Assembly: GCA_002771745.1 (NCBI GenBank)
Contig: PCUL01000006.1
Coordinates: 2,851 to 52,191, forward strand
DNA: 49,341 nt
Source: Bacteroidetes bacterium CG18_big_fil_WC_8_21_14_2_50_41_14
GTDB lineage: Bacteria; Bacteroidota; Bacteroidia; Bacteroidales; F082
Direction of reading: 5' to 3'
Every line of letters begins with the position of its first letter. Position 1 is the stretch's first letter. The notes under the pieces are model-generated. The model was not told the DNA's origin. It saw nothing but the letters and a program-made list of their open reading frames with translations, and made no database searches. Below, piece by piece: positions 8,001 through 24,854 of this stretch. Both the position numbers and the translations under genes were made by a program.

Positions 8001-10681
8001 GGTCTGGGTGACGAAATAAGTTGAATATCAGTTAATAGTTGGTTCATTATGGTGGTGGCATCATAGTCTATTGACCGAAGCCTGGCTGCCTGCCTGATTT
8101 TCTTATGTAACTCTGTCTGATTAAAATAGCTGATTACTTTTTTTGAAAAGCCTTCTTTGGTATCTGCAAGGAATCCATTTTTACCATCTGTAATAATGTC
8201 TTTTGGACCCTTGTTGTTATAGGCAATTACAGGGAGTCCACAACTCATGGCTTCAAGCACAACGCAACTGAATGTATCGAATCTGCTGGGTAACAGGAGT
8301 AAATCGGCTGAGGAATACAAATCAACGAGCTGTTTTTGTTCCATCCATCCCATGAAAGTAGCATCGGGTAACAGCTGTTTTAAGGAATCTTCTTCAGGTC
8401 CCGATCCTGCAATAATGACTTTTAAATTTGGATGTGATCCCTTGATTTTCCCTATGATTTCAGGCAGTTCCATCACCCCTTTTTCTTTGCTCAATCGCCC
8501 TGCATAAATTACTGTCGGTTGGTTGCCCGGTAATGTATTTCTAATTTCATGATTATTTGTCGTTTGATAAATTTCGTCCACCCAATGTGCCGTCATTTTC
8601 AATTTCTCCTTATCAATTTTCATTTGTTCTCCTGAAAGCCAGTTTTGTTGATCTTTGTTTAACACGAAAACCAAATCAAACATATGATAGAAACCTCGTA
8701 AGAGTCGTTTTAATCTTTCCAAACTTGGCTTTTCGAGTTGAAGTACTTTTTTTCCAAACAACATCCAATCGGTGTGAAGGTAAAAATAGGCAGGAACGCT
8801 ATAGGCATGTTTTAGGAACAGGGCAACCAAACCCATGGGGAGCTCGGTGGAGGTCATAACCCTATCGTATTCACCCTCTTTAAAAATGGAATTTATTTTA
8901 TTGATGTTGGGAATCCGGATGGGTTGCTGGCTATAAAATGGCAGTGTGAACGTAGCGTCAGGTTTAACCACGATGAGGTTTTTTTCGGATGAGACCGTGT
9001 TGCTGCAAACCAACAAATCGATGGGTAGATCGTGTAGTTGTATGTGGTGAAGCATACTCTTTAGCACCATAGAAACCCCATTTTTATCTTCAAAAGTATC
9101 GGTTAGCCAAAGCATTCGTTTAGGATGTTTGTACTTTTGTAAGTGATCGGAAAAATTATTGAGCATCGGACGGGCATTGTACAGAACTTTAAAGCTGGTA
9201 AAGTTGGCTGCAAGCAGTATGCCTGATGCCAGAAATGGGAAAGACAATCCATCCAGGATTTTTAATAGCTGGCTTTTGTTGGCTGAATTCTTGTCTTTTT
9301 TGTCCGATGAATTACTCTTTATTAAATACGTCCGGAGGTCAGCCGGTAATTCAAAATCCTTGAGAATCTGGTGAAACGATAAACCAGTAAAATCGTACGC
9401 CAGTTTTAATTTTTCTATTTTTTTTTCGGCTCTCGCCCACAGCAGATTGTTAAGTTCATCGCTGATGTTTTGCACGCTCCTGGTATAAATGGCGGCAGCT
9501 TGTGTGGGTTGATTTTTTTTAGCATGTGCGATTTTTAATGCTTCATCAAATACAGGTTTATAAGGTTTTTTGATGAGCATTCGTTTCAGGTTTCCGGGGA
9601 CTACTCCAACAAACGACTGGTGAAATAGTTCTACGAATTTCATGGTGGTTTTATGTTGTTGCAATTCAGCGAAAGCGTTTGTAATAAACAGTGCCAACAT
9701 TTTTTCCTGAGCGGTACCCTGGTGTAACAGCAGCCGCAACAATCCAGGATCTTTATGGTTAATGGCTATCTGACAAACATAATCCAGAAAGGCGATGTTG
9801 AGTTTTTCGTTGTTGTTGTGTGAACCATAAGGAGCCATTTGCCCGTTTTTTATGGCTTCAAGAGCCAGCTGTGATGCCGGCATTGACTTTTTTCGTTCTT
9901 CAAGATCTGGTACATGAAGGCAGGTTCCCGAAAGTCCGGTAAAAATCCCCATGTGGCTGTCGGAACCGCCTGTCATGTACTTTTTATAAGGATGATTGCA
10001 AAAATCAGATGGTTTTATCCCTGCATGGTAGGCATTTGACTCTAATACGGTTGGTGTCAGACTCTCAATCCAGCTTTTAACCATCAGGTTTTGCCAGGTG
10101 TCGCGTTGCCCGTTGATCACCTCGAAGCGCTCAAAGACAAGCGACATCTTGTTGAAAAACGCCATATCCGGGATATGTTTTGGACTATAGTGATAGAGTG
10201 GATGTGCCCAAACCGTTGGAATATCATGCGAAACAGCATATTCCTGAAAGGCGTACACATTTTTCCTGAGTTTATTTAGCATGGTTTCCTGGGCGGGATC
10301 GAAACCATAAGCCAGCACATGAATGCCGATATGGAAATCGGGAACCGTGCAGCTAAATTCGGCACCGGTAAGTATGTCAATGCCTTTGTTTTGCAGCTCG
10401 TAGCACGAGCGGGCATTGTTGTGGTTGGTGATGGTAAAGGCATTGCATCCGTTTTGCTGAAGCGTTTTAAGTACTGTTTCTGTGGGAGTCCAGGTTTCAG
10501 GCACATTGAGGATACGCCCCAGTACTTCATCGGGTACATCGCTGTTGTAGTCATGGCAATGCAGATCCATCCTGAGGGTTTCCTGTATTGGAAACCGAAG
10601 TCGTTGTGTTTCGATGAAGGTGGAAATATCTGATTGAAGTAGTTTTGAAAATTCCCTGGCGTGACTAAAAGTAAGTTCCAT
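7997..10681 (-). CDS. PHP-domain / GT4 glycosyltransferase fusion
   Basis: This 894-residue protein joins two enzymes. Residues 38-290 are a PHP metal-dependent phosphoesterase domain with the expected metal ligands: DLHCHD (H41, H43), NHNN, GAEF, WAHPLYH and GGSDSHMG. Residues about 521-894 are a GT-B glycosyltransferase of family 4: an N-terminal WLTDTFEDKNGVS, the donor-site GRLSKEKG (728-735), and the C-terminal catalytic pattern FDTFSCVVLEAMSCGLP with E810. Between them lies a helical linker of about 230 residues with a hydrophobic stretch near 475-495 that might touch the membrane. There is no signal peptide. Coupling to the GH13 gene suggests sugar-polymer or glycoconjugate metabolism, but donor and acceptor are unknown. 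Confidence 0.85.
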   Translation of the reverse strand: MELTFSHAREFSKLLQSDISTFIETQRLRFPIQETLRMDLHCHDYNSDVPDEVLGRILNVPETWTPTETVLKTLQQNGCNAFTITNHNNARSCYELQNKGIDILTGAEFSCTVPDFHIGIHVLAYGFDPAQETMLNKLRKNVYAFQEYAVSHDIPTVWAHPLYHYSPKHIPDMAFFNKMSLVFERFEVINGQRDTWQNLMVKSWIESLTPTVLESNAYHAGIKPSDFCNHPYKKYMTGGSDSHMGIFTGLSGTCLHVPDLEERKKSMPASQLALEAIKNGQMAPYGSHNNNEKLNIAFLDYVCQIAINHKDPGLLRLLLHQGTAQEKMLALFITNAFAELQQHKTTMKFVELFHQSFVGVVPGNLKRMLIKKPYKPVFDEALKIAHAKKNQPTQAAAIYTRSVQNISDELNNLLWARAEKKIEKLKLAYDFTGLSFHQILKDFELPADLRTYLIKSNSSDKKDKNSANKSQLLKILDGLSFPFLASGILLAANFTSFKVLYNARPMLNNFSDHLQKYKHPKRMLWLTDTFEDKNGVSMVLKSMLHHIQLHDLPIDLLVCSNTVSSEKNLIVVKPDATFTLPFYSQQPIRIPNINKINSIFKEGEYDRVMTSTELPMGLVALFLKHAYSVPAYFYLHTDWMLFGKKVLQLEKPSLERLKRLLRGFYHMFDLVFVLNKDQQNWLSGEQMKIDKEKLKMTAHWVDEIYQTTNNHEIRNTLPGNQPTVIYAGRLSKEKGVMELPEIIGKIKGSHPNLKVIIAGSGPEEDSLKQLLPDATFMGWMEQKQLVDLYSSADLLLLPSRFDTFSCVVLEAMSCGLPVIAYNNKGPKDIITDGKNGFLADTKEGFSKKVISYFNQTELHKKIRQAARLRSIDYDATTIMNQLLTDIQLISSPRP

Positions 10682-10757: not shown

Positions 10758-12794
10758 TTAAAAACCAATGGTAAGTGAAACCCAGAACCTTCTTCCCGGG
10801 GCATCCACTCCTGAACCGTGTACCCGATACAATGTATTGAAAATATTCTCAAGCCCAGTATTGAATTTCAGTATCTTCCATTCAAAATGACTTTCAATGT
10901 GTACAGAAGTCCAGCCGGGAGTCCCCCCATCGGCAATTCGGTCGTCGTCCTTATCACCACTGCTCAACCGGTTTTGACTGGAGGCAAACATCATCCCGAC
11001 ATCAAAACTCAATTGACGAAATGGACGATAAATGCCCCCCACATAGCCATTGAAAGGAGGTATTCGCCTTATCGGCTCATTATTTTCAGAGTTAAAACCA
11101 TAGGTATAGATTGCATATGCTCTGGCTGACAGATTACTGGAAAAAACATGTGTCAACTCCGCTTCCGCACCTCTGATAATAGCCCGGTGAATATTCTCCC
11201 GATGATAAACCTGGATGCCATCAATGGAATCCTGCCCCATATAGATAGTCTTTACATTGTCGATCAGGTCGGTAAGTAAATTTCGGTATAAAAATAAGGA
11301 AGCAAACCACCCTTCTCTCTTAAACTGAAACCCCAGTTCCATGTTAAAAGCCTTCTCCGGTTTTAATCCAAAATTAGGAACTTCATACCTGAAATCGGCT
11401 ATTCCAAAACTGGATACATCGCTGATATTGGGTGCGCGATAAGCCGTATTGGCAGAAGCCGAAATCCTGAATAACGGACTTAATGCCCACCCTGCACTTA
11501 GCAATCCTACCAAAGCATCGGGAGTTATGTGCGATTCACCAAACATAGGATCGTCTACCACCAGTTCTATAAAATTGTACCTGGCTCCGGTTTGAATGGT
11601 TAATCGTCCCTGTTCAATTTTATGAATGGTAAACAAGGAAGTACTCAACATGGAAGAATTATCGGGATACAATCCTCGTTCCGATTCCTGAGAAACGCCG
11701 TCAGTTAGGATTGTAGAAGCAGAACTGGCGATGTGATCGTAATAGCTCTCAACGCCTGTGGTGGCGATCCATTTTTCCGAAAACGAAGATATATTTTCCA
11801 GGATGAACCCCGAAGTAGTAACACCGTCTTTTTCCACATCTGTATGGTCGGCGTCTGATTTCCTTTTATTTCGTTGTTCAAATGAAGATTGAATGGAAAT
11901 TGTGGCTTTGATTTCAGAAAACAAAGGATGGCTTGTGTACATTTTGAATTTTAAATAGGCCAGACTACGTTGTTGAGGATCGAAACTGTACAAAGAAAAT
12001 GTCCCGGATTGAATCTGATGATAAAGGGGAACATCTTGTTGAATATCATGCTGAATAGCGAAGATCATTTCTTTGGAATGATCAAGTTTTATCTTCAGCT
12101 TCAGATCACCGGAAAAACCGCTGTAGCCGGTTGGACTAAGCACTTTACCCTGTTTACCCGGGTGTATGTCGCCAAATTTTTTGATTGAGAATCCCGATAC
12201 CAGTGCTAACTTTTTAGAAGAAAAGCCCAACTGAGCACGTGTACTTTTTTCCATGCTGTCGCTCATCCATTTTCCATAAACCGACCCAGTAATGCGGGGC
12301 TTTTGGTTTGAATATTCAGGCTCAATGGTTTGAATGTAAACGGTGCCACCAATGGCATCGGAGCCATATTGAACAGACCCCGAACCCCTCATCACCTCGA
12401 TTTTACTGCACATCAATGGATCAACAGTGTTGAGATACTGGTTTGGGCCCGAGCGAAAGGTAGCGTTGTTTAGCCTGATGCCATCGATGAGGATAAGCGT
12501 CTGATATCCGGTAAGTCCGCGAATAAAAGGAGAACCACCTCCCAGATTGGTTCGTTGCATCCAAACGCCCGGCATTCGTTCCATGGCTTCAGGTAAGGTA
12601 CCAGGTGATAATTGCCGGATTTGTTTCTCTTGCAACAGCGAGATCGCCGAAAGGCTTGTATAATACTTTTCGGAACTCCGTTGAGCCACAATAACGACTT
12701 CATCAAAAGTAATGGTATCCGTTTGTACAGAGACTATTTGTGCCCTTAGCCATCCCCACTGTAAGAGGAATACAAGTAAAAGCAATTTTTTCAT
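10758..12794 (-). CDS. TonB-dependent outer-membrane receptor
   Basis: The 678-residue protein begins with a signal peptide (cleavage near LRAQ, residues 16-19) and a TonB-box-like strand followed by a plug domain. Plug motifs include 'RMPGVWMQRTNLGGGSPFIRGL', 'ILIDGIRLNNATFRSG' and 'IEVMRGSGSVQYGSDAIGG'. A 22-strand barrel follows and ends in a terminal aromatic residue (SLTIGF), as expected for BAM-dependent insertion. It has no carboxypeptidase-like N-terminal extension, so it is a classic siderophore/cofactor-type receptor and not a SusC. The YncE-propeller/phosphoesterase gene ends 12 bp upstream, which points to one transcript and a shared substrate. The ligand cannot be told from sequence. 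Confidence 0.9.
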   Translation of the reverse strand: MKKLLLLVFLLQWGWLRAQIVSVQTDTITFDEVVIVAQRSSEKYYTSLSAISLLQEKQIRQLSPGTLPEAMERMPGVWMQRTNLGGGSPFIRGLTGYQTLILIDGIRLNNATFRSGPNQYLNTVDPLMCSKIEVMRGSGSVQYGSDAIGGTVYIQTIEPEYSNQKPRITGSVYGKWMSDSMEKSTRAQLGFSSKKLALVSGFSIKKFGDIHPGKQGKVLSPTGYSGFSGDLKLKIKLDHSKEMIFAIQHDIQQDVPLYHQIQSGTFSLYSFDPQQRSLAYLKFKMYTSHPLFSEIKATISIQSSFEQRNKRKSDADHTDVEKDGVTTSGFILENISSFSEKWIATTGVESYYDHIASSASTILTDGVSQESERGLYPDNSSMLSTSLFTIHKIEQGRLTIQTGARYNFIELVVDDPMFGESHITPDALVGLLSAGWALSPLFRISASANTAYRAPNISDVSSFGIADFRYEVPNFGLKPEKAFNMELGFQFKREGWFASLFLYRNLLTDLIDNVKTIYMGQDSIDGIQVYHRENIHRAIIRGAEAELTHVFSSNLSARAYAIYTYGFNSENNEPIRRIPPFNGYVGGIYRPFRQLSFDVGMMFASSQNRLSSGDKDDDRIADGGTPGWTSVHIESHFEWKILKFNTGLENIFNTLYRVHGSGVDAPGRRFWVSLTIGF

Positions 12795-12806
12795 AAAGAG
12801 AAAACT

Positions 12807-15560
12807 TTATGGATTGATCATGTCATCCACATGATCTAATTTCGGCGAGTTGGCCACAGCCTTCCAATCAAATTTTTCGTCAAACGGGTCAAGCGCCTTC
12901 TGTGGATCGAACACCCGCACATCAACAGGTAAGGCATGATATGGAGTGAAATCGGGTTGGATGGAAAACAAATCCGATAAATCAGAGGCACCCGCATCAA
13001 ATTGATTCAAGTACGGTATTCCGAGAATATTCCAGAAAGTTTTAAAAATGCTGCCAAAACTATAATGATGGTGACCTACATAGTTTTTTTTCGCGTATGG
13101 CGAAATAATCATCACGATGCTTCTGTGCGCATCCACATGGTCCTGGCCATTTTGTGCGTCATCTTCGGTCACCACAATGGCCATATTTTTCCAGAAAGGC
13201 GTTGAAGACAGGAATTCAATAATGCGACCGAGGGCCAGATCGTTATCGGCCATATAGCTTTCGCGGAAGGGGAATCCTGCCGCCGGCCTTTCGCCTGCTC
13301 CATGGTCGTTTGGAAGGATGAGCGAGATAAATCCGGGAGGCTCCATGCCCGGTTTCAACCACTTTTGGGTATATTCATCAATGAAAATATCAGCCCTGAA
13401 CTGATCGGGGATGGCCATGTTGAAAGTGGGATATTTCCGTGAAGAGTTAACAAAAACCGGGGCAGGTACAGGATAGTTTACCAGGTATTTTTCGCCTCCG
13501 TATTTCATGGTTGAATCAGAAATGGCACCGGCGAGTTCGACACTGAAACCAAAATTGAACAAGGATATGTTGTTTCTCTCTAAATGCTCCCACATCGATC
13601 CTGCTTCGTTATAATCTTCGGGATAAATGGCACCAGAGGATCCTACAAAAGCAAAATTCCCCGGGGCTGCTGAATTCTGTCTCATCCCCCTGCGTCCACC
13701 ATATGATGCAGATACACTGGTTTCTACCCATTCGTTGGGATAAGTGCATGTCAACCAGCGATGACCGTCGGCAGATACATCCGAATCTACATAGAAATTA
13801 TCGGACATGGCAAACCTTTGAGCCAAAGCCAGATGATTTACCATGATATCGGCATTTATTACTGAATCGGTTCGTTTGTTGTTATGGAATGAAACCCCTG
13901 CTCCATATCTGGCCATGGAGGGGTCGCCCCTGGCTTCTTTCACCTGACCAAACACTTCATCAAAGGTTCTGTTTTCTTTAGAAAGGAACACCACGTATTT
14001 GATTGGCGATGTAAACTCTCCGGGGTAGGCAGGCACGGGGTTGTTATCCTGGTTTTTTTTGTAAGGTTCTATTTTAAAATTGTTGCTCACTACTTTTTGC
14101 GAGAGCGCGCCAAGTTGGCTTTCATAGGGAATATCCAGTATCGAAACGGTTCCGTACATAATGCTGCCGATGTAGGTTCCCGCAATGGAGGGGTCAAAAT
14201 CAGCACCACCATTGGGACCGCTACCAAATCCTTTGGCATTGGCCACAACAAGTTTTTTTCCGTCGGGAGTCACTTTCAATTTGGATGGAAACCAACCAAC
14301 TGGTATATGACCCAAAACGTCGAACGTTTCTGCATTTATCACTGCAACGGCATTGATTCCCGATTCAGCTACATACAATCTTTTCATATTAGGAGAAAGG
14401 GCCAATCCAAATGGAATTACACCCCGCAGATTTGAAAACCGGGCATCCGGATACAAATGGATATGCTTAATAATGGTATCGGTTTTAGGATCGATGACAG
14501 AAATCAGGTCGTTATTGCCATTGCTCACGAAAAGATATTTATCGGAAGCCACCACAGAATTAGGACTGGAGCCACCTACAGCAGCAATTCCTTCAATAAC
14601 CTGGCCTACAAGAAAGCCCGTTTTTATTTTAGATGAAACATAGGCTGAATCTCCCAGATTGACAACCCAAACCGAGAAAGATTCAGGCACGTTGGGATCG
14701 CCCAAAGGAGGAACTGACATGGAATCGTTAAGTGCATATCCTTCAATTGCATGTTCTGACATATAGGCTGACGTTGGAAAATCCAGAGACTGCTCTTTCA
14801 GATGCTTTGCATCCAGTCCTGTAATAGCTTTGTATTCGTACATTCCCACATTGGCCACATAGGCTTTCTTTCCATCGGGAGATAAGGTTACTCCAAATGG
14901 ATATCGCCCCACCCGAACCCTGTTAACCAGTTTCCTTTGTTTTATGTCGATGATATTCAAACAGAAATTGATCTGATCAACCACATAAAGGGTATTGCCA
15001 TCGGTTGACAGAACCAGATCCCCCAGATATCCATAGCTATACTCATTTCCATTCCAGGAGGAAGCGCAATTGATGGAGTCAACTTTTTGGGAAGTGTTTA
15101 GATCAAATACGTAAATATTGTTGGAGTTTCCTCCGGAAACATATACATTCTTGTTGTCGTTAGTGATGGCCAGTCCCATGAAAACAGACTCAAGCACCCC
15201 TTTGTCGTTGTCGGGTCCTTCAGGTATCTGGGTAACCTGAATGTCATCGCTATCCAGGTTTTTTATCACCGAAATGGAAAATGGATTTGTACCTGAATTG
15301 GCTGTTACAGCCACCGTTCCATCAGGGCTTAACACCAAACCGTAAGGATGTGGTGCTACTGTAATTTGTTTACCCATCGGAGTAAGTATTCTACCATTGG
15401 GAATAATCGTTTCTCCGCTTTTTGCAACTTCACAATACCGGTTCCCGGCCGGAGCGCTCACTATATATTGCCGGTTAGTTGCACGCTGTTGGCAAGCGGT
15501 GAAAATAGTACCCATTGAAATCAGAGAGATCAATGCAAATAATTTAAGTAAATTTTTCAT
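12807..15560 (-). CDS. Surface lipoprotein: YncE-like beta-propeller fused to alkaline-phosphatase-type phosphoesterase
   Basis: The 917-residue product has a lipoprotein signal with lipobox cysteine C23 (IFTAC). Residues about 45-480 form a YncE/YVTN-type beta-propeller, shown by repeats such as GLVLSPDG, GVTLSPDG, GLALSPN and KVTPDGKKLVVANA. Residues about 515-917 form a phosphoesterase domain of the alkaline-phosphatase superfamily, with the metal/nucleophile strand KENRTFDEVFG (529-538 region), DNFYVDSDVSADGH (587-600) and a late 'VTEDDAQNGQDHVDAHRS' metal site. It should cleave a phosphate ester at the outer face of the cell or in the periplasm. It sits between SusCD and a TonB receptor gene. 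A terminator-like hairpin lies directly in front of its start codon. The substrate is not known. Confidence 0.9.
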   Translation of the reverse strand: MKNLLKLFALISLISMGTIFTACQQRATNRQYIVSAPAGNRYCEVAKSGETIIPNGRILTPMGKQITVAPHPYGLVLSPDGTVAVTANSGTNPFSISVIKNLDSDDIQVTQIPEGPDNDKGVLESVFMGLAITNDNKNVYVSGGNSNNIYVFDLNTSQKVDSINCASSWNGNEYSYGYLGDLVLSTDGNTLYVVDQINFCLNIIDIKQRKLVNRVRVGRYPFGVTLSPDGKKAYVANVGMYEYKAITGLDAKHLKEQSLDFPTSAYMSEHAIEGYALNDSMSVPPLGDPNVPESFSVWVVNLGDSAYVSSKIKTGFLVGQVIEGIAAVGGSSPNSVVASDKYLFVSNGNNDLISVIDPKTDTIIKHIHLYPDARFSNLRGVIPFGLALSPNMKRLYVAESGINAVAVINAETFDVLGHIPVGWFPSKLKVTPDGKKLVVANAKGFGSGPNGGADFDPSIAGTYIGSIMYGTVSILDIPYESQLGALSQKVVSNNFKIEPYKKNQDNNPVPAYPGEFTSPIKYVVFLSKENRTFDEVFGQVKEARGDPSMARYGAGVSFHNNKRTDSVINADIMVNHLALAQRFAMSDNFYVDSDVSADGHRWLTCTYPNEWVETSVSASYGGRRGMRQNSAAPGNFAFVGSSGAIYPEDYNEAGSMWEHLERNNISLFNFGFSVELAGAISDSTMKYGGEKYLVNYPVPAPVFVNSSRKYPTFNMAIPDQFRADIFIDEYTQKWLKPGMEPPGFISLILPNDHGAGERPAAGFPFRESYMADNDLALGRIIEFLSSTPFWKNMAIVVTEDDAQNGQDHVDAHRSIVMIISPYAKKNYVGHHHYSFGSIFKTFWNILGIPYLNQFDAGASDLSDLFSIQPDFTPYHALPVDVRVFDPQKALDPFDEKFDWKAVANSPKLDHVDDMINP

Positions 15561-15574
15561 GTTCAGTTATATTT

Positions 15575-15622
15575 AAAAAAAAGTCGGCTGCTCATTCCCT
15601 GATTGTGAATAAAGCAACCGAC
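15575..15622 (-). terminator. Strong intrinsic terminator/attenuator between susD and the phosphoesterase gene
   Basis: On the minus strand a 10-bp stem (GTCGGTTGCT with AGCAGCCGAC, one wobble) is followed at once by eight T. The inner TATTC/GAATG can extend the stem. The phosphoesterase start codon is only 14 nt beyond the T run, too close to fit a promoter after the hairpin. Confidence 0.8.
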
Positions 15623-15682
15623 AAAACAAACCAAAAAAATAATGAAAATGTTATATCAGATAGTCGCTAAATGAACACAATC

Positions 15683-17161
15683 TTAATTGATCCACCAGGT
15701 AGCCACACGCGTTTGATCGTTACCTGCACCAAACTGGCTGCTGATAGCTTGCGAAACATTGTCGGCATTCAACTGGTATTCAGCGTTTGGATACATCCAC
15801 CTTAATGGAGGTGTGGATGCGGGAAGATAATCAAAATGCGGATATCCTGTTCTCAGGCGATCAAAATAGGCGTTCCAGCCACCCTGCAAAAACGACTGGA
15901 AGTACTTTTGCATGATGATCCTTTCGATTTTTTCTTCCGGGGTTAGTGCATTGTCAAGTTCCACAATTGGTTGTGTCAGGTAATTAGTTGCGGACACCTC
16001 ATCCACATACGAAGCATATTCCAGGGCATAGGTGTTATAAAAGGCAAACGAACCCAGGATGGCATTGTTGTAGTATGTTTTGGCATCGCCTGAAATCCAT
16101 CCTCTCACAACAGCTTCAGCAAGGATCAACTGTAATTCAGGATATCCTAAAGCAACTGAAGGTTCGGTAGTTGGATCGGTGGTATAGCGGGAATTAACTT
16201 TGGACGCGTTTCCAGCGAAAGCTTTGTCGTTGTTCTCATCCGGTGAGGAAACAGGATTTCCTCCATCGTATCCGTTGAAATCGTCGATAGGTAAACCGGC
16301 TTCTTTGGCATTTCGGGTTTGTCCATAAAAAATAAAGAGACGGGGATCTTGGTGGTCGCGTAACTTTTGAATAAAGGTAGAGTCCCCATACCTGGAAGAA
16401 CCATAACTACTTGCGTTAAATTCAGTATATCGATTACCCAATTGGTCAACAAATACCAACTGACAGTTGTCTGCCACTGATTCAAATATAGCTTCGTTGT
16501 TAACAATCTGAGCAAATTCAGCAGCGATGTTCAAATTGGCATCTCCCTGCTTTTTGGATAAAGACATCAACACTTTCAATCTGAAGGAATTGATCATTTT
16601 TCGCCATAGAGCAGGATTTCCTTTGTAAATAATGTCTCCTTCAATTAAATCGTCGCCCATCATTTCATTGGCTTCCTTGAGTTCGTTAAGAATGCCTGCA
16701 AAAACATCCTTTTGTGTATCATAAACCGGGGTAAACAGGGCATCTTCTTCGCCCAACATGGCTTGGGAATATGGTATGTCACCAAATTGAATGGTCAATT
16801 TATAGAAATACCAGGCTCTGAAAAACTTAGCAAGTGCCTGATAAGAAGTGTTTTCGATGCGAGTAGCCTCTTCCATCATTTTTGCAACATCTCTAAGCCT
16901 GGAATAATTGTCAAAACTACCTCTGTCCCAACTATAGTACTGATTAGGTTCTTCTCCATCGGTTTGAACTACCATTCTGGTAGCAAACAAGGGTGATACT
17001 CCCTCTACCTGAAAAGCATTCCACTCAATGGTGGTTAGCAGCAATTGCGGGTGCGATTCCGAAACGTTGTTGGGATTAACATTGATATCTTCCAGTTTCT
17101 TGCAGGAGCTGAAGGCGGCGATTACGATGGAGATATAAAAAAGGATTCTTATTGTTTTCAT
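15683..17161 (-). CDS. SusD/RagB-like nutrient-binding outer-membrane lipoprotein
   Basis: The 492-residue protein has a lipoprotein signal with lipobox cysteine C20 (FSSC), followed by the short 'KLEDINVNPN' opening typical of the SusD-like_2 group. The helical tetratricopeptide-like core is seen in 'ALAKFFRAWYFYKLTIQFGDIPYSQAM' and in the C-terminal 'ERIIMQKYFQSFLQGGWNAYFDRLRTGYP'. SusD caps the SusC channel and binds the substrate on the cell surface. Its start lies 30 bp after the susC stop. It is followed by a strong terminator, so most transcripts probably end after this gene. The ligand class is unknown; no polysaccharide-degrading enzyme is nearby, which argues against a glycan utilisation locus. 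Confidence 0.92.
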   Translation of the reverse strand: MKTIRILFYISIVIAAFSSCKKLEDINVNPNNVSESHPQLLLTTIEWNAFQVEGVSPLFATRMVVQTDGEEPNQYYSWDRGSFDNYSRLRDVAKMMEEATRIENTSYQALAKFFRAWYFYKLTIQFGDIPYSQAMLGEEDALFTPVYDTQKDVFAGILNELKEANEMMGDDLIEGDIIYKGNPALWRKMINSFRLKVLMSLSKKQGDANLNIAAEFAQIVNNEAIFESVADNCQLVFVDQLGNRYTEFNASSYGSSRYGDSTFIQKLRDHQDPRLFIFYGQTRNAKEAGLPIDDFNGYDGGNPVSSPDENNDKAFAGNASKVNSRYTTDPTTEPSVALGYPELQLILAEAVVRGWISGDAKTYYNNAILGSFAFYNTYALEYASYVDEVSATNYLTQPIVELDNALTPEEKIERIIMQKYFQSFLQGGWNAYFDRLRTGYPHFDYLPASTPPLRWMYPNAEYQLNADNVSQAISSQFGAGNDQTRVATWWIN

Positions 17162-17191
17162 AGTTCAATGTTTTAAAAATTTTGTAAAAAT

Positions 17192-20100
17192 TTAGATGGT
17201 GAATTTAAAACCAAGTCCAAGGTATCGCGCCGAGGGATCCTGCAAATCGTTGTCCTGACCAAAATCAGGATCAACAATGATGGCTTTCTTCAAAATCAGG
17301 AGGTTATACCCAAAGGCATAAACCTCGAATTTTTTTGATCCTTTGATATTGAACAGGCTGGTAGCATCATAGGTAAACGAAACTGTGCGAAGTTTAACGA
17401 AAGTCCGGCTAACCACATTGGCAAATTCACTGCTTTCGTCCTCGGTAACGCGGGCACGGTAAGGATAGTTCTGGCTCCAGGTTTGCCAGCTAACGGCGGT
17501 GGTATTGTCTTGAAAAACACGGGTATCCGAAATAACTTCTCCATTCACGCCACGAACAAGTTCGCCACTCACCACATTTACCCCATCTGGAACATAAACA
17601 GGTTCACCTGCGGCATATTCAGCATCGCGCCAGGTGGTCGAATTGGGGTGTTTTCCACCCCACCACATCTTCTCAATGGTTCTGGACCAAAATACTCCTC
17701 CCACAGCACCATCAATTCCAATGTCCACCGATAGCTTTTTGTATTTAAAATTGTTGGTAAAGCCAAATATCCAATTGGGATCCTGATGTCCCATCATTTG
17801 TGGATAGGAATCCTTGGTAGGCAACCCGGTGGTTTCAGAAAGAATTACTTTTCCATCGGGAGATTTCATCCATCCGGTGGTATAGAAGTTGTCAACTCGC
17901 TCACCAACTGATAAATAGTTGTATTTATCCTCATCACCATAGATTTTGGTGAGTTTTTTTACATGATGCGACCAGTTAACAAGCACATCCCACTGGAAAT
18001 TGCGGTTGCGTATGGGCTTGGCCGTCAATACAACCTCTAAACCGTTGGAAGTGTATTCGTTTCCATTTACCTTATGGGAACTAAATCCGGTTGAAGGGGT
18101 TACCGGAAGATTCAATATCTGATTCTCATCAACCACATTATAATAGGTAACATCAAGAGCAAGTTTATTTTTCAGAAATGATGAGGAAAGACCCAATTCA
18201 ATAGATGTGGATTTCTCGGGTTTAATATTGGGGTTGATGATGTCACCGGGATAGGTAATCATGGTTGTCCCATCGTAACTCCCGGCATTGGTATAGTAGG
18301 ATGATGTTTGGTAAGGATCTAAGTCGCTTGAAACCGAAGCCCACGAACCATAAACCTTCAGGTAGTCGATGGCTTTGGGCATGGTTACTAAATTGGAAAC
18401 CAGGGTGCTCAGCGAAACCGATGGATAAAAATAGGAGTTATTGGCAACGGGGAGTGTTGACGACCAGTCGTTTCTTCCGGAGAAGGTCAAAAAGAAGGCA
18501 TTATAAAAATCCACATCAGCGGTAGCATAAACACTGCGTAAGGCTCGTTCCCGTAAGTAGGTGGAAGCTTTTACGTTTCCTTTGGTGTTGTTCAGGCTAT
18601 ACACCCATGGGGCGATAATCCCATCGGTAGCATTATAGTCCTGACCGTATTTGCGGTAGTTGGTTGCAGCACCGGCATTCACTGTCAGGTTTATCTGAGA
18701 GGTGAGTTGCTTGTGGTAGGTAGCCAACAAATCGTTGTCCATGGTAAGCCATTTGGAATTCCAGGTTTTGTAGTCGCCATCACGTGGGTCACCATAGTTT
18801 AGGTACGACTTGGGACTTTTTCTGTCTTCAAACAAGTTTTTGCTGATAGTCGAAGTCCTCATTTGTACCGAAAAGTCTTTGCTTATATCCCATTTAAGGC
18901 TCAACTGACCGTTCATGATGTCGGCATCATACATCTGAGTTAATTCATAAGCTGCAAAATATACGTTGTTGTACCAGGCATAATTGAAGTTTGCCTGACG
19001 GTATCCTTCCATTCCCGGGATATATTGATGAGCATCCAGATCCTGACCATTTACGTCATCACCCATCCAGATTAGAATCGTGTACATGTGGTTTTTGGGG
19101 CCATAGCCATATCTGGGATAGTTAGTGGAATACACTTTTCCGTATGAAAGCTTGCTGTCGAGGGTAAGATTGTTGGCCAGTTTGGCTGTCGAGGCAAAAT
19201 GCACACCACCGTTGCTCAGATCAGTGTTGGGCACCTGACCTTTTTGATAAGAATAGTTTCCGGAAAACCGGTAACTAAATTTGGCACTTTTGTAGGCCAT
19301 CGAAAAATCGGAGTTGGTAACGATACCTGTTCCCAAAAAGTCTTTCAGGTTGTCGTGTTGCTCCCATGGGGTGGGAGTTCTCGAATAACGTGACTGGTCG
19401 TCGTATTTGGTGCCTGCCACATCTCCGTACCAGGGAATGGATTCGCCGGTAACATTGTCGTAGATGGGACTATTCCATTGCGCGATCATCTTACCTGGCT
19501 CAAATTTTGGTCCCCAGATCATGTCGCCGTCAGAGATACCACCATCCTGGCCATCCCAGAAGGCATACTGACCATTCGAGCCGTTTCCGTATTGGGTTTG
19601 AGTTTCAGGATAAACCGTAAAGCCGGCAGTAAACATGGTGCGGTTGGAGAGGGTAATTTCCAGCCCCTCTTTATCAGCGGTTTTTGTGGTGATCAGGATG
19701 GCCCCATTGCGCCCTCTTGAACCGTACAAGGCAGAAGCAGAGGTGCCTTTTAATACCGTTATGTCGGCTATATCGTTGGACGACAGGTCGTAGAAATCTG
19801 TTTCAACAGGTATGTTATCAACTACAATTAATGGTGTTTTTCCACGTAGTGAAAAACCGGGTGCCTGAAAAATCCCTGTGGGATTGCTAACTGTCAACCC
19901 GGCCACTTTACCGGTGAGCAGGTTTCCAATGTTGGGAGCATCCACTTGTTCAAGCTCCTTGGTCTCCATTTGTTGCGTGGAATAACCTACGGTTTTTTTA
20001 GCATGTTCGATACCCAAAGCGGTTACCACAAACTCATCCAGATTCACCGAACTTTCGCTTAATTCTATGTTCATGGTTTTTTGAGTGCCTACGGGCATTT

Positions 20101-20339
20101 CTAAATTCTCATAGCCAATAAATGAAAAAACGAGTGTGGCCTCTGAACTAACAGTTAAAATATAAATACCCTTTGCGTCAGTTACAGTTCCGTTAAGAGT
20201 GCCTTTTTCGAGCACATTTACACCCGGCAAAGGATTCCCCGGTTATCTTGTCGGTAACCATTCCGGTAACACGCTCATTCTGGGCAAACAAGGCTGTCCC
20301 CAGAAATAGAAAGAGAATCATCATGTAGAAATTCTTCAT
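17192..20339 (-). pseudogene. SusC-like TonB-linked transporter with a +1 frameshift near the start
   Basis: The intact part (17192-20230) encodes 1012 residues: the end of a carboxypeptidase-like repeat domain (VNVLEKGTLNGTVTDAKG), a plug (GLTVSNPTGIFQAPGFSLRG, SALYGSRGRNGAILITT), a barrel and a terminal aromatic strand. The signal peptide is not in this frame. It is in another frame, from the ATG at 20339 (MKNFYMMILFLFLGTALFAQ), continuing as VTGMVTDKITG. The two frames would join as ITG-NPLPGVNV if one G were removed from the GGGG run at 20236-20240 (plus-strand CCCC), or as GESLPGVNV if one T were removed from TTT. As given, the transporter cannot be exported. The cause could be a real mutation, phase variation at the G run, or a sequencing error. 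Confidence 0.85.
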
Positions 20340-20396
20340 TGTTGTTGGTTTTTTAGATTTAGTGATTTTTATTTATTATTGCTTTATTTCGATTTT

Positions 20397-20945
20397 TTAA
20401 TTCCATTGAACTTGTATGCGATCAAAGACTAAAAGCATCTGATCCACATTATCTGACTTTTGAAGCAGATGTTCAATTTGGGATGATTCCTGATGACATA
20501 GCAGGATCGCAACATCCAAAACATGTCCCAACTTATGTTCTGCCTCGGTTTTATCAATAGTTCCCTTTCGAACACCTTTGGTATAGTACTTGTTGATTTT
20601 GTTAATACTTTGGTATAGGGTGGGTTTTTCTATCATCACGTGCCCACTAAAAGCACCCGGAGCAGGTTCTGTAGTGTAGGTGTAGTTTTTCTCTATCAAA
20701 TACATCTTTTTGGCAAAGGCCTCTCCGAATGCATGATTTCTGAGGTCGGAGCCATTCGCTTGTTCATACTGCGTTTGGAGGTTTGCCAGAGAACCCATAA
20801 TGATGATGCTTTCCATGGGAGCTTCAACTTCCATTATATTAGCTTTGTAAGCCGATTTTGTGTGATGAGCCACTTGCGACCAAAGTGATGTACCCGAAAA
20901 TATCCAGGCGATAGATAAAAGGATAAATAATTTTTTAGGTTCCAT
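20397..20945 (-). CDS. Exported hypothetical protein, first gene of the SusCD locus
   Basis: I do not recognise this 182-residue protein. It has an N-terminal signal peptide (hydrophobic core FILLSIAWIF, cleavage near LWSQ, residue 24) and no lipobox, so it should be periplasmic or outer-membrane associated. The rest looks mainly helical, with a Tyr-rich centre (NYTYTTEP) and a C-terminal helical region containing one cysteine. No catalytic motif is visible. The susC start is 57 bp downstream and a long leader with regulatory repeats lies upstream, so it is likely the first gene of the transcript. A role in regulation or in the function of the SusCD/phosphoesterase system is only an inference from position. 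Confidence 0.7.
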   Translation of the reverse strand: MEPKKLFILLSIAWIFSGTSLWSQVAHHTKSAYKANIMEVEAPMESIIIMGSLANLQTQYEQANGSDLRNHAFGEAFAKKMYLIEKNYTYTTEPAPGAFSGHVMIEKPTLYQSINKINKYYTKGVRKGTIDKTEAEHKLGHVLDVAILLCHQESSQIEHLLQKSDNVDQMLLVFDRIQVQWN

Positions 20946-21094: not shown

Positions 21095-21102
21095 CAAATA
21101 TA
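21095..21102 (-). promoter_or_regulatory. Candidate -7 element of the SusCD/phosphoesterase locus
   Basis: The minus strand reads TATATTTG, a perfect TAnnTTTG. It would give a leader of about 140-150 nt before the hypothetical gene at 20945. A pair of heptamers ends 9 bp upstream of it. Confidence 0.45.
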
Positions 21103-21111
21103 TCGGCAGCC

Positions 21112-21184
21112 AGGTTATCACATGGTTAAGAGCATATTACGAAAAACTTATCATACTGTGAATTTAACTTTAATTATCTGTTAA
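21112..21184 (-). promoter_or_regulatory. PHO-box-like direct repeats
   Basis: On the minus strand TTAACAG-N4-TTAAAGT-N4-TTCACAG (21184-21156) and TTAACCA-N4-ATAACCT (21129-21112) repeat a TTAAC-like heptamer every 11 bp. The proximal pair ends 9 bp before the -7 element. A 7-4-7 layout just upstream of the core promoter is how PhoB/OmpR-type activators bind. AT-rich DNA can produce such repeats by chance, so this is a candidate only. Confidence 0.4.
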
Positions 21185-21616: not shown

Positions 21617-22771
21617 CTAGTACGCGTGGTGGTCATCTTCCATTTCCTGGGAAGTGATGGGTTTTTTGTTGAGCGAACTCCATGCATACCAGATATATGC
21701 AATTACGAACGGAACCAGCAACGAAACATAACTCATGGCCACCAGCGTGTATTTACTCGATGACGCGTTCTGAATGGTAAGCGAACTTTGTAAATCGCTG
21801 GTAGAAGGATAGAAACAGGTGTTGTTAAATCCAACCAGAATCAGCAGCGCGAACACGGTGAGTATGGTGCCTCCACCGGTAAACCAGATGGCTTTGGTTC
21901 CACATTTTTCATAATGAAATGCCCCCCGGTAGATTCCCCATAAAACTGCCATCACACCTAAAAGCAGGATAACCGTATTCAAAGGCATTTCGATGAGGTT
22001 GTTGAAGTATTTGTATGGAACCATGCTCACCACACCATCGGCATCGTATCCAAATCCATCCATCAACAATACATTGATAAGGAAAAACAGGAAAAAAACC
22101 AAAAACGGCAACGCGTTAAATAACAACTGTTTGCGGGCACGAGCCAGGATAGTTTCATCCTCAATGTTGTTGAAGAAATACAGGATTCCCAATACTCTGG
22201 CCAGGAAGAATACGGCCAACCCCAACGATAGGTTGATAAAGGTTTCGTAACGGGTAAAGTTAAAGGCCAGCTCCAAACCTCTGTACGGATTTTGCCAGAT
22301 GCTGTGGTTCATGTTGGTCACCAGAAAATCGGAACCAGTAAAGAAAGTAGCCACCGCAGTACCCACGAGGATAGTTCCCAACAATCCATTGATAAACAGA
22401 AAGGTTTCGTAGGTTTTGGCCCCCAGGAAATTATCTGCTTTGGTTCTGTATTCATAGGAAACGGCCTGAATAATGAAGGCAAATAAAATCAGCATCCAAA
22501 CCCAGTAAGCTCCGCCAAAACTGGTGGAATAAAACAATGGAAAGGAGGCAAAAGCGGCACCACCAAAGGTGACCAGGGTGGTAAAAGTGAGGTCCCATTT
22601 GCGTCCAAGTGAGTTTACGAGCATTTTTATTTCGTTGTCGGTTTTTCCCAGACTTTTAATCATGGTTTGACCTCCTTGTACGAAAAACATAAATACCAGG
22701 ATGGCTCCAAGTAAGGATACGATCATCCACCAATACTGTTGCAATGCGAGATATGATAAATTTTCAAACAT
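21617..22771 (-). CDS. cydB: Cytochrome bd quinol oxidase subunit II
   Basis: CydB is the non-haem-ligating partner of CydA in the inner-membrane bd oxidase that reduces O2 to water with electrons from quinol. The 384-residue product has about eight to nine membrane spans and ends with a short charged tail (EMEDDHHAY). Typical features are the N-terminal QQYWWMIVSLLGAILVFMFFVQGG and the 'FPLFYSTSFGGAYWVWMLILFAFIIQAVSYEYR' block of the family. The start lies 2 bp after the cydA stop, so the two are translated together. This oxidase usually has high oxygen affinity and works at low O2 or under nitrosative stress. Confidence 0.97.
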   Translation of the reverse strand: MFENLSYLALQQYWWMIVSLLGAILVFMFFVQGGQTMIKSLGKTDNEIKMLVNSLGRKWDLTFTTLVTFGGAAFASFPLFYSTSFGGAYWVWMLILFAFIIQAVSYEYRTKADNFLGAKTYETFLFINGLLGTILVGTAVATFFTGSDFLVTNMNHSIWQNPYRGLELAFNFTRYETFINLSLGLAVFFLARVLGILYFFNNIEDETILARARKQLLFNALPFLVFFLFFLINVLLMDGFGYDADGVVSMVPYKYFNNLIEMPLNTVILLLGVMAVLWGIYRGAFHYEKCGTKAIWFTGGGTILTVFALLILVGFNNTCFYPSTSDLQSSLTIQNASSSKYTLVAMSYVSLLVPFVIAYIWYAWSSLNKKPITSQEMEDDHHAY

Positions 22772-22773
22772 AA

Positions 22774-24318
22774 TTAGTGCCCTCCTTCATTTTTTGATCC
22801 GGAAACGATCTGTGAAACCATAATTTTAATTTCTGCAATCAGCAGTACAGTAAAGGTGACGGCAAATATCCAGAAAGTCACCACCACAGATGATTTATCG
22901 ATATTGGATACTGCGCTGAGCGTGGGCATTAAATCCTGTACTACCCATGGCTGTCGACCCATTTCGGCCAGAACCCACCCGGCCTGGGAAGCGATGTAGG
23001 CCAGTGGAATAGTCCACAAGGCTATGTATAGTACCCACCTGATTTCTTCGATTTTTTTCTTGTAGAGTAGCACCAGAAGTACAATAAACAAAATCATGAA
23101 ATGTACCCCCAGGATAACCATGATATGGAATGAATAAAAGGCCATGGGGACACTAGGAACCAAATCGTTTGGGTCATCATAATAACCGTATCCAAAATAG
23201 GCATAGTTGGCTTCAAATACTTTTAGGTTCTCCGCCGCTGCTACCTGGTCTTTACGCTCCAGTGCATCCTTATAATCACCTAATGCCTTGATGGCCAGCT
23301 TACCTTTGTCGATTTTTTCATAATACGACATGATGCCGTGCTTTTCGTTACCGTTGATCAGGTCGTTGATGCCGGGAACGAACACATTGGAGTTTAATGC
23401 CACCATGTAGGATAGCAGGTTGGGGATTTCAATTTTAAAGGCAAACCTATCTACGTCAGGTTGCCTGGGGTCGGGAACTTCTTTGAGAAAGCCGATAACT
23501 ACCAGGGGTGCGCTTACGTTGCCATCATCCAGGCCTTCAAATGCGGCAAACTTCATGGGTTGAGTGTGATAAATATCCCGGGCCGATTCGTCACCCGTTA
23601 GTACCAGATAAAAGGACGACAACAAACCAAATACGGCTGCTACGATCATGCTTTTCTTCGCAAAATCCACATTCCGGTGCTTAAGCAGAAACCATGCACT
23701 TACGCCTACTACAAAAATCGCCGACAATACATATCCTGAAGAAATGGTGTGTAAGAATTTGTTGATGGCTGTAGGTGAAAAGAGGACTTCCCAAAAGTTA
23801 ACCATCTCATTTCGGGCGGTATCCGGGTTAAAACGCATTCCAACAGGATTTTGCATCCATGCGTTGGCTACCAGAATCCACAGTGCCGACAGATTCGAGC
23901 CAATGGCCACCAGCCAGGCAGAAATCAGGTGAAATTTTTTGCTAACACGTCCCCATCCAAAAAATAGGATGGCGATAAAGGTGGATTCGAGGAAGAAAGC
24001 CATAATGCCTTCTATGGCCAGCGGCGCCCCAAAGATGTCTCCCACAAACCAACTGTAGTTCGACCAGTTGGTCCCAAATTCAAACTCCAGAATAATCCCT
24101 GTTGCTACGCCAATGGCGAAGTTTACTCCAAACAGGGTCATCCAGAATTTGGTGATCTTTTTCCAAAGCTCATTACCGGTTCTCACATAAATTGTCATCA
24201 TGATAGCCACAATGAAACTCAATCCCAGCGTGAGCGGGACGAATATCCAGTGGTACATGGCTGTGAGGGCAAATTGTGCCCGCGACCAGTCGACAAGCGC
24301 CATGTCAAAATGTTCCAT
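22774..24318 (-). CDS. cydA: Cytochrome bd quinol oxidase subunit I
   Basis: CydA carries haems b558, b595 and d and oxidises quinol at the periplasmic Q-loop. The 514-residue product has the N-terminal haem ligand H23 (QFALTAMYHW; E. coli H19). It also has the acidic proton-path block 'GIILEFEFGTNWSNYSWFVGDIFG' with the following 'EGIMAFFLES', and the conserved GRQPW motif at 454-458. The length is normal for the family. It is the second gene of the transcript DUF4492-cydA-cydB-peptide; the DUF4492 stop is 4 bp upstream. Confidence 0.97.
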   Translation of the reverse strand: MEHFDMALVDWSRAQFALTAMYHWIFVPLTLGLSFIVAIMMTIYVRTGNELWKKITKFWMTLFGVNFAIGVATGIILEFEFGTNWSNYSWFVGDIFGAPLAIEGIMAFFLESTFIAILFFGWGRVSKKFHLISAWLVAIGSNLSALWILVANAWMQNPVGMRFNPDTARNEMVNFWEVLFSPTAINKFLHTISSGYVLSAIFVVGVSAWFLLKHRNVDFAKKSMIVAAVFGLLSSFYLVLTGDESARDIYHTQPMKFAAFEGLDDGNVSAPLVVIGFLKEVPDPRQPDVDRFAFKIEIPNLLSYMVALNSNVFVPGINDLINGNEKHGIMSYYEKIDKGKLAIKALGDYKDALERKDQVAAAENLKVFEANYAYFGYGYYDDPNDLVPSVPMAFYSFHIMVILGVHFMILFIVLLVLLYKKKIEEIRWVLYIALWTIPLAYIASQAGWVLAEMGRQPWVVQDLMPTLSAVSNIDKSSVVVTFWIFAVTFTVLLIAEIKIMVSQIVSGSKNEGGH

Positions 24319-24566: not shown

Positions 24567-24854
24567 TGATATATTATATATAAATAGTTAATTTTTTGTT
24601 AATTTATTTTTCATCGCCATGAAATCCAGGTTGAATTAACTAATTTATCTTAAAATGAATCAATTAATGATCCTATAGGCTTATTAGCAAAAACAGCAGA
24701 TGATGAAAGCATGGATCAGCCTTCAAACCGAAGACCAGTAAAAGTAATGTTAGAAAATTGCAAAAAAAATCCGCAATGAGGCATAATGGCATCATATAAC
24801 TATATGATCTAAAAGGAACTTATTAGTCCCCCTTATTTATGAGCCGGAATGCGA

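Follow-up and report, generated by a model that had tools for sequence, protein, structure and literature searches.

A 49,341-nt stretch of DNA from Bacteroidetes bacterium CG18_big_fil_WC_8_21_14_2_50_41_14 (assembly GCA_002771745.1, contig PCUL01000006.1, positions 2,851 to 52,191; the whole stretch is called the window) carries five adjacent genes on its minus strand, at 10758–20945. The encoded proteins are an exported 182-aa protein (X182), a SusC-like transporter, a SusD-like lipoprotein, a propeller-phosphoesterase (PPE) and a second TonB-dependent receptor (TBDR). The five genes form a real and conserved SusCD system of the PUS type, in which a phosphoesterase takes the place that carbohydrate-active enzymes (CAZymes) hold in a polysaccharide utilization locus (PUL). 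With moderate confidence, we read it as a PUL-like organic-phosphorus acquisition system centered on the PPE, in which import would be followed by periplasmic cleavage. The system probably evolved on phosphonate esters. A role in organic phosphorus acquisition had been proposed by a first-pass annotation of the letters, and it is supported by an active site that is intact by sequence, by orthologous loci that carry phosphonate catabolism genes, and by Flavobacterium SusCD loci beside phosphoesterases that are induced by phosphate depletion (as described in the parts of PMC8115612 used here).

A conserved five-gene locus

Pfam and NCBIfam searches confirmed the five genes and their families. 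Upstream to downstream, X182 (20397–20945), which has a signal-peptide-like start and no family, is followed by SusC (17192–20339; TIGR04056, 459 bits versus a cut-off of 368), SusD (15683–17161; PF12771, 218 bits versus 27), the 917-aa PPE lipoprotein (12807–15560) and TBDR (10758–12794). The search found no CAZyme among the five genes, and the phosphoesterase beside the SusCD pair matches PF04185 with its predicted catalytic residues intact. SusC and SusD are adjacent. In the window assembly, a frame break lies close to the beginning of SusC (20220–20339), where the signal-peptide ATG at 20339 is out of frame with the open reading frame (ORF) at 17192–20230. In two related loci (L001 and L002), SusC is an unbroken ORF of 1048 aa; thus, the break in the window is either a fault of the assembly or a lesion specific to this strain.

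For comparison, we scanned the GTDB species collection with the PPE, covering the genomes in which any of six exact peptide patterns occurs; the best 80 of 114 confirmed stretches were retained. One locus (L004), identical in sequence to another (L003), was left out of the neighbor counts (79 loci), the comparison of upstream regions for the motif and the tree. The same five genes in the same order are found in L001 and L002, where the proteins are 85–97% identical to the window's, with cydB upstream and an 894-aa PHP/glycosyltransferase-type gene downstream. The ratios of non-synonymous to synonymous substitution rates (dN/dS) between the window and these loci are 0.16–0.20 for X182 and 0.13–0.18 for SusD, PPE and TBDR, the four genes for which they were computed. 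Because identity is 85–97%, gene order is kept and these ratios lie at 0.13–0.20, the conservation of the locus exceeds chance. Co-occurrence of the genes, suggested as a check by the first-pass annotation, was borne out in part: all five were seen together in a single genus only (the window, L001 and L002), four-gene and two-gene subsets appear in other genera, and the PPE–TBDR and SusCD–PPE pairings each recur outside the window's genus.

The SusD protein points to the same locus in other genomes. We searched 12 genomes, picked because they hold SusCD–PPE loci, with the window's SusD and tied the matches to loci by contig coordinates. The top match lies inside the PPE locus in 11 of the 12, and in the remaining genome (G474) the PPE-locus copy ranks second, 6 bits behind. 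Four of these genomes hold 8–14 SusD homologues at E ≤ 1e-10, so the best match is informative there, and it is trivial in two (G335 and G476) that hold only one.

The propeller-phosphoesterase and its predicted active site

The propeller of the PPE matches the YncE-type family PF21783 (35 bits versus a cut-off of 27) and its phosphoesterase matches PF04185 (33 bits versus 23). An alignment of 29 PPE sequences has invariant residues E529, N530, S596, N751-D752-H753, D772-N773-D774, E799-D800-D801, D807, H808, D810 and H812. The profile of this alignment matches the acid phosphatase AcpA (2d1g) at E = 8e-10, with the EN and DD motifs lined up, and matches phospholipases C marginally. The EN and DD metal-site motifs of AcpA-type enzymes are thus present in the sequence, and the invariant S596 is, by analogy with AcpA, the putative serine nucleophile. 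The PPE falls far below the cut-offs of the NCBIfam models for acid phosphatases and PC-PLC (38 of 363 and 17 of 580 bits) and below that of the YncE equivalog NF052280 (44 of 400 bits). The PPE would cut a P–O ester bond with a metal site of the AcpA/phospholipase C type.

The predicted model of the PPE (pLDDT 82, pTM 0.85) places the propeller at residues 60–480. Superposed on E. coli YncE (3vh0), the model scores Z = 34.2 with an rmsd of 3.6 over 311 residues, a tie with many other propellers, including designed seven-bladed ones, so that the fold alone is not YncE-specific. Close to the catalytic residues, at 595–599 and 802–809, pLDDT drops below 50 and the model is uninformative on active-site geometry. 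The Foldseek and VIA lists for the whole model are filled by propellers; consequently, the kinship of the catalytic domain rests on sequence. Beside or near the main PPE, 11 loci (L005, L011, L012, L015, L017, L024, L026, L027, L029, L033 and L073) carry a second, more distant propeller-phosphoesterase, 28–43% identical to the window's, which often adjoins a TBDR.

Phosphonate genes beside orthologous loci

Orthologous loci in relatives link the SusCD–PPE core to phosphonate catabolism. In two genomes of another genus in the window's family (G023 and G009, whose PPE loci are L023 and L046, matched by coordinates), the order on one strand is X182–SusC–SusD–PPE–DUF5690–PhnW–PhnX. Two further loci share this core: L051 holds a TIGR03364-cluster oxidoreductase and PbfA between SusD and PPE, and L043 holds PbfA there. 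Neighboring genes were clustered by single-linkage BLAST and one representative of each cluster was typed. Representatives exceed the curated cut-offs for PhnW (481 versus 401 bits), the phosphonatase PhnX (343 versus 220), PbfA (719 versus 525), the TIGR03364 FAD oxidoreductase (430 versus 285), a PhnX-like hydrolase (233 versus 219) and DUF5690 (547 versus 25), while that of Phn-HD falls narrowly below (212.7 of 214.6). PhnW and PhnX proteins over these cut-offs thus stand beside SusCD–PPE (L046 proteins; G009 and G023). Spirosoma luteum and Flavobacterium soyangense are among the cultured bacteria that have a phosphonate version of the locus.

Among the 79 PPE loci, a TBDR lies within two genes in 26, and SusC or SusD lies no more than four genes away in 17. 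X182 is present in 6 and a phosphonate gene in 17, of which 12 have SusC/SusD nearby. Restricted to the 40 loci flanked by three or more genes on either side, the counts are 18, 13, 5 and 12, respectively. One locus (L026) was counted as having SusCD although its SusC is on the opposite strand, and was set to absent by hand in the tree; in L005, SusC–SusD is five genes away, outside the four-gene limit used in both. Within the 40 well-flanked loci, phosphonate genes are found in 10 of 13 with SusC/SusD, versus 2 of 27 without (Fisher P = 1.8e-5). Counted the other way, SusC/SusD are close in 10 of the 12 phosphonate loci and in 3 of the 28 loci without phosphonate genes.

As PPE loci are related by descent, we built a PPE tree (quick method, 41 rows) for the association between SusCD and phosphonate genes. 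The window's clade is sister to L005 and L006 (SH-aLRT 98), its nearest relatives outside the genus. These loci read PPE–TBDR–TIGR03364–PhnX-like–DUF5690, with SusC–SusD next in L005. This placement suggests descent of the window's locus from a phosphonate locus that lost genes; the alternative is independent assembly.

These arrangements are consistent with the following mechanism. SusD and SusC would capture a conjugate that contains phosphorus and carry it across the outer membrane. The PPE, most likely facing the periplasm, would cut its P–O ester, with the propeller as a binding platform. In the orthologous loci, gene context predicts an aminophosphonate product, such as 2-aminoethylphosphonate, which DUF5690 would carry inward and whose C–P bond would be broken by PhnW and PhnX or by the TIGR03364 oxidoreductase and the PhnX-like hydrolase. 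The window's lineage would probably keep only the phosphate or alcohol part, or now use a phosphate ester.

An upstream repeat and possible phosphate control

On the minus strand at 21095–21129, 150 bp upstream of X182, a Pho-box-like direct repeat (TTAAC-N6-ATAAC) is followed by a putative Bacteroidota-type −7 element, TATATTTG, and both are kept in L001 and L002. Judged by the promoter consensus of the phylum, repeat and −7 element form a putative promoter. The strict pattern of repeat plus TANNTTTG occurs once in the window's own genome. The motif was picked after viewing the window, which makes the statistics post hoc, and L001 and L002 do not count as independent evidence beside the window.

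With a match required at 9 or more of 10 positions, the repeat is found in 18 of 84 target regions, those upstream of genes of the system, versus 29 of 375 other upstream regions of these loci (P = 5e-4), and Markov copies gave a mean of 3.7 and a maximum of 7 such matches in 50 runs. Exact matches over all 80 loci, with the duplicate L004 included, number 19 versus 6–14 in five Markov controls. Upstream of pstS, the repeat at this threshold was found for 2 of 5 PstS proteins over the cut-off and for 2 of 20 weaker homologues; a triple 11-bp repeat precedes pstS in G009, the genome of L046, and the only PstS-like gene of the window's own genome, which is below the cut-off, has no repeat. Of the papers listed by a search of the open-license PMC literature for a Bacteroidetes Pho box, none was relevant, as judged from titles and abstracts. 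Phosphate control of the locus is plausible from these sequences, though the Pho-box evidence is mixed. In two loci (L055:1326–1915 and L065:2058–2647), a small lipoprotein gene precedes a second propeller-phosphoesterase, with a triple 11-bp TTAAC repeat ahead.

Missing catabolic genes and alternative substrates

Several observations weigh against an organic-phosphorus system with phosphonate origins. In the window's genome, no more than 28 bits are scored for PhnW and 40 bits for PhnX, DUF5690 is missing from the genus (three PPE-holding genomes) and PhnJ is found in 0 of 41 relatives; these absences from family searches are not absolute, because the PF04185 profile search of the same genome found nothing, though the window's PPE passes the cut-off in hmmscan. 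We also searched 24 PPE-holding genomes, at E ≤ 1e-30, with a panel of PhnX, PhnX-like, TIGR03364, PbfA, Phn-HD and an alkaline-phosphatase-type protein. At this threshold, the three genomes of the window's genus (G000, the window's own, G001 and G004) lack PbfA, TIGR03364, PhnX-like and Phn-HD, and the panel returned from them only class-III aminotransferases of about 30% identity. At least one phosphonate panel gene is present in 15 of the 24 genomes and none in the other nine (G000, G001, G004, G015, G345, G346, G347, G348 and G352), both Ignavibacteria included. The hydrolytic pathway for 2-aminoethylphosphonate (PhnW or TIGR03364 with PhnX or PhnX-like) is not found in the window's genome and its two congeners (completeness of 93%, and 99% and 97%, respectively); PhnY and PhnA were not searched for.

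The wider comparisons add to this. On the PPE tree, SusCD and phosphonate genes co-vary in six of seven independent pairs, which is not significant (P = 0.125); the contrary pair is probably the window's clade, which has SusCD and no phosphonate gene. Neither TBDR, SusCD, X182 nor phosphonate genes accompany the PPE in 40 of the 79 loci (14 of the 40 well-flanked ones). A search of 121 sampled Flavobacterium genomes found the PPE in three (E ≤ 1e-40), and it is thus no core part of the phosphate regulon described there. The repeat at 10 of 10 positions occurs in 3 of 84 target regions versus 3 of 375 others (P = 0.08). Furthermore, a TTAAC-N6-TTAAC repeat lies at 24587–24602 (minus strand), about 284 bp upstream of cydA, a spacing shared by L001 and L002, which either speaks against specificity for phosphate genes or hints at a shared control of cydAB.

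The strongest alternative is a plain phosphate-ester system, where the PPE acts on lipid head groups, glycerophosphodiesters or nucleotides as a phosphodiesterase or phosphatase, the phosphonate genes of relatives are an add-on and the window's genus has the basic form. The genus lacks every C–P cleavage gene tested, as do nine of the 24 genomes for the panel, and, among solved structures, AcpA and phospholipase C are closest to the catalytic domain. Against this, the sister clade (L005 and L006) and the X182–SusCD relatives (L023, L043, L046 and L051) all have phosphonate genes in the locus, and SusC/SusD accompany 10 of the 12 well-flanked phosphonate loci. We hold this alternative to be possible, short of an even chance. 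Under a phosphonate origin, too, the absence of the tested catabolic genes means that the present substrate of the window's genus may be a phosphate ester, and any substrate assigned to the genus would be carried over from its relatives.

Use of the aminophosphonate by relatives mainly as a nitrogen or carbon source, independently of phosphate, is unlikely. It has a precedent in AepP of Pseudomonas putida, which grows on 2-aminoethylphosphonate as a nitrogen source (in the parts of PMC8316502 used here), and the amino part is the target of PhnW, PbfA and the TIGR03364 enzyme. However, the window's genus lacks all three, and the Pho-box-like repeats would, if they are real, speak for phosphate.

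Probable import before cleavage

The first-pass annotation had placed cleavage at the cell surface. In that scheme, SusC imports the released organic part, while a cofactor or metal complex enters through the second receptor, a division for which YncE beside YncD might be a model. The PPE is a lipoprotein in the window's genus, its YncE-type propeller stands beside a TonB receptor, and that receptor resembles heme and B12 receptors. In Bacteroidota, acidic residues behind the lipobox cysteine signal export to the surface. The lipobox of the window's PPE continues as CQQRATN, with no acidic residue among the six after the cysteine, as in L001 and L002. Fourteen of 19 SusD proteins in the cluster have a lipobox detected by our pattern, which is crude and misses some cysteines, and all 14 carry 1–3 acidic residues behind it. 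The PPE proteins of the X182-bearing phosphonate loci (L023, L043, L046 and L051) have no lipobox and begin with a signal-peptidase-I-type leader ending in AQ; both kinds of leader occur across the PPE family. Given the missing acidic motif and the missing lipoboxes, surface cleavage is not supported; the TBDR scores below the hemin-receptor cut-off and has no link to any cofactor, and the scheme as a whole appears improbable.

The export-signal rule instead places the PPE in the periplasm, so that import would precede cutting. Judged from these signals, import followed by periplasmic cleavage is likelier than surface cleavage. The same order is proposed for the PUS loci by their authors (in the parts of PMC8115612 used here).

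The second receptor and X182

The TBDR has barrel and plug domains (PF00593 and PF07715). Its best NCBIfam model is the hemin receptor TIGR01785, where it scores 211.8 bits against a cut-off of 316.85, and its likeness is to heme and B12 receptors. On the PPE tree, TBDR–PPE pairing appears in several clades, with and without SusCD. The TBDR may act on the same class of substrates, perhaps in place of SusCD in loci where the latter is missing.

Neither Pfam nor NCBIfam offers a match for X182 at E ≤ 1. In all six PPE loci that hold it, among the 79, it stands directly before SusC, the only place where it was seen, and its dN/dS values indicate conservation under purifying selection. A profile search of 295 genomes of the class found it in the window's own genome, plus one weak partial match (21 bits); two holders (G009 and G023) are missing from its results. 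The structure prediction asked for by the first-pass annotation was obtained (pLDDT 71, from 7 sequences) and gave no clear match in structure searches: Foldseek returned no match at E ≤ 0.001 and VIA nothing at Z ≥ 8, the best being a designed repeat protein (Z = 6.3, rmsd 3.9, 105 aligned residues). Our guess is that X182 is a SusCD-associated or periplasmic helper.

A locus for a metal, heme or quinone ligand, with a phosphoesterase engaged elsewhere, such as on the cell's own envelope, would agree with the heme/B12 likeness of the TBDR and with PPE genes in Ignavibacteria and other loci that have no SusCD, TBDR or phosphonate genes, but it is made very unlikely by the repeated linkage to phosphonate genes and by the intact catalytic residues. 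In four Ignavibacteria-type loci (L025, L041, L042 and L077), the PPE sits in a constant neighborhood without SusCD, TBDR and phosphonate genes.

Surroundings of the locus

Downstream on the same strand, at 6390–10681, an 894-aa protein is followed by an alpha-glucosidase-type gene, and both are kept in L001 and L002. The former appears to join a PHP-type domain to a glycosyltransferase. The latter (6390–8000), two genes downstream of the locus, is presumably of the GH13/alpha-glucosidase type. The earlier remark that the block has no glycoside hydrolase thus holds for the five genes, and this ORF lies outside them. At 21617–24318 and 27237–49268, the window has a dense respiratory block, recognized by eye: cytochrome bd, heme-copper oxidase genes, a fused cbb3-type oxidase and genes resembling alternative complex III.

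Comparison with known systems

Phosphonates are a notable share of environmental organic phosphorus. On a tentative view that we consider possible without leaning toward it, Bacteroidota possess a PUL-like system devoted to conjugates with phosphonate esters, for example phosphonoglycans or phosphonolipid head groups. SusCD would be its importer, the PPE its periplasmic phosphonate-ester hydrolase, DUF5690 an aminophosphonate permease and X182 a new small component, and the window's genus would retain the import-and-cut module after losing the C–P cleavage genes. If so, the PUL principle extends to phosphonate esters, and testable roles follow for the widespread propeller-phosphoesterase, for the uncharacterized transporter family DUF5690 and for the small exported X182 family. 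In the open-license PMC literature, we found no description of the SusCD–PPE–DUF5690–PhnWX arrangement and no account of the uptake of bulky phosphonate conjugates by Bacteroidota; searches there for DUF5690, and for YncE with alkaline phosphatase, SusD and TonB-dependent, returned nothing.

Compared to E. coli, where YncE stands beside the TonB receptor YncD, the window likewise has a YncE-type propeller beside such a receptor, while its propeller is fused to a phosphoesterase. We take YncD to be PqqU. The latter is an importer of PQQ (in the parts of PMC12124388 used here). AcpA of Francisella (2d1g) and the PF04185 phospholipases C share the EN and DD motifs with the PPE, and only the PPE is fused to a propeller.

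PbfD, PbfA and PbfF have been described (PMC10590968, PMC8154272 and PMC12366243, each as far as used here), and the words TonB and SusC do not appear in the main texts of these three papers. Of the 2-aminoethylphosphonate clusters (PhnW–PhnX/PbfA/PbfD), PhnW, PhnX, PbfA and the TIGR03364 oxidoreductase, perhaps PbfD itself, recur in orthologous Bacteroidota loci, and none in the window's genus. The permease AepP is found beside PhnWX or PhnWAY genes (PMC8316502, in the parts used here), and DUF5690 resembles it, by gene context only, as an inner-membrane permease gene beside PhnWX in orthologous loci that is absent from the window's genus.

The closest known system is PUS (PusCD) of Flavobacterium, which shares with the window's locus a SusCD pair that stands beside phosphoesterases without CAZymes (in the parts of PMC8115612 used here). 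A WD40/YVTN-type lipoprotein induced by low phosphate (Fjoh_3414, Table 1 of that paper) was considered as a PPE homologue, which was not established, no sequence from F. johnsoniae having been identified; the PPE occurs in the three of 121 Flavobacterium genomes noted above. The enzymes of PUSI and PUSII (pf00149, pf16670 and PhoA1) differ from the window's, and sections 14, 16 and 19 of PMC8115612 do not name a YncE–PF04185 fusion, X182 or DUF5690.

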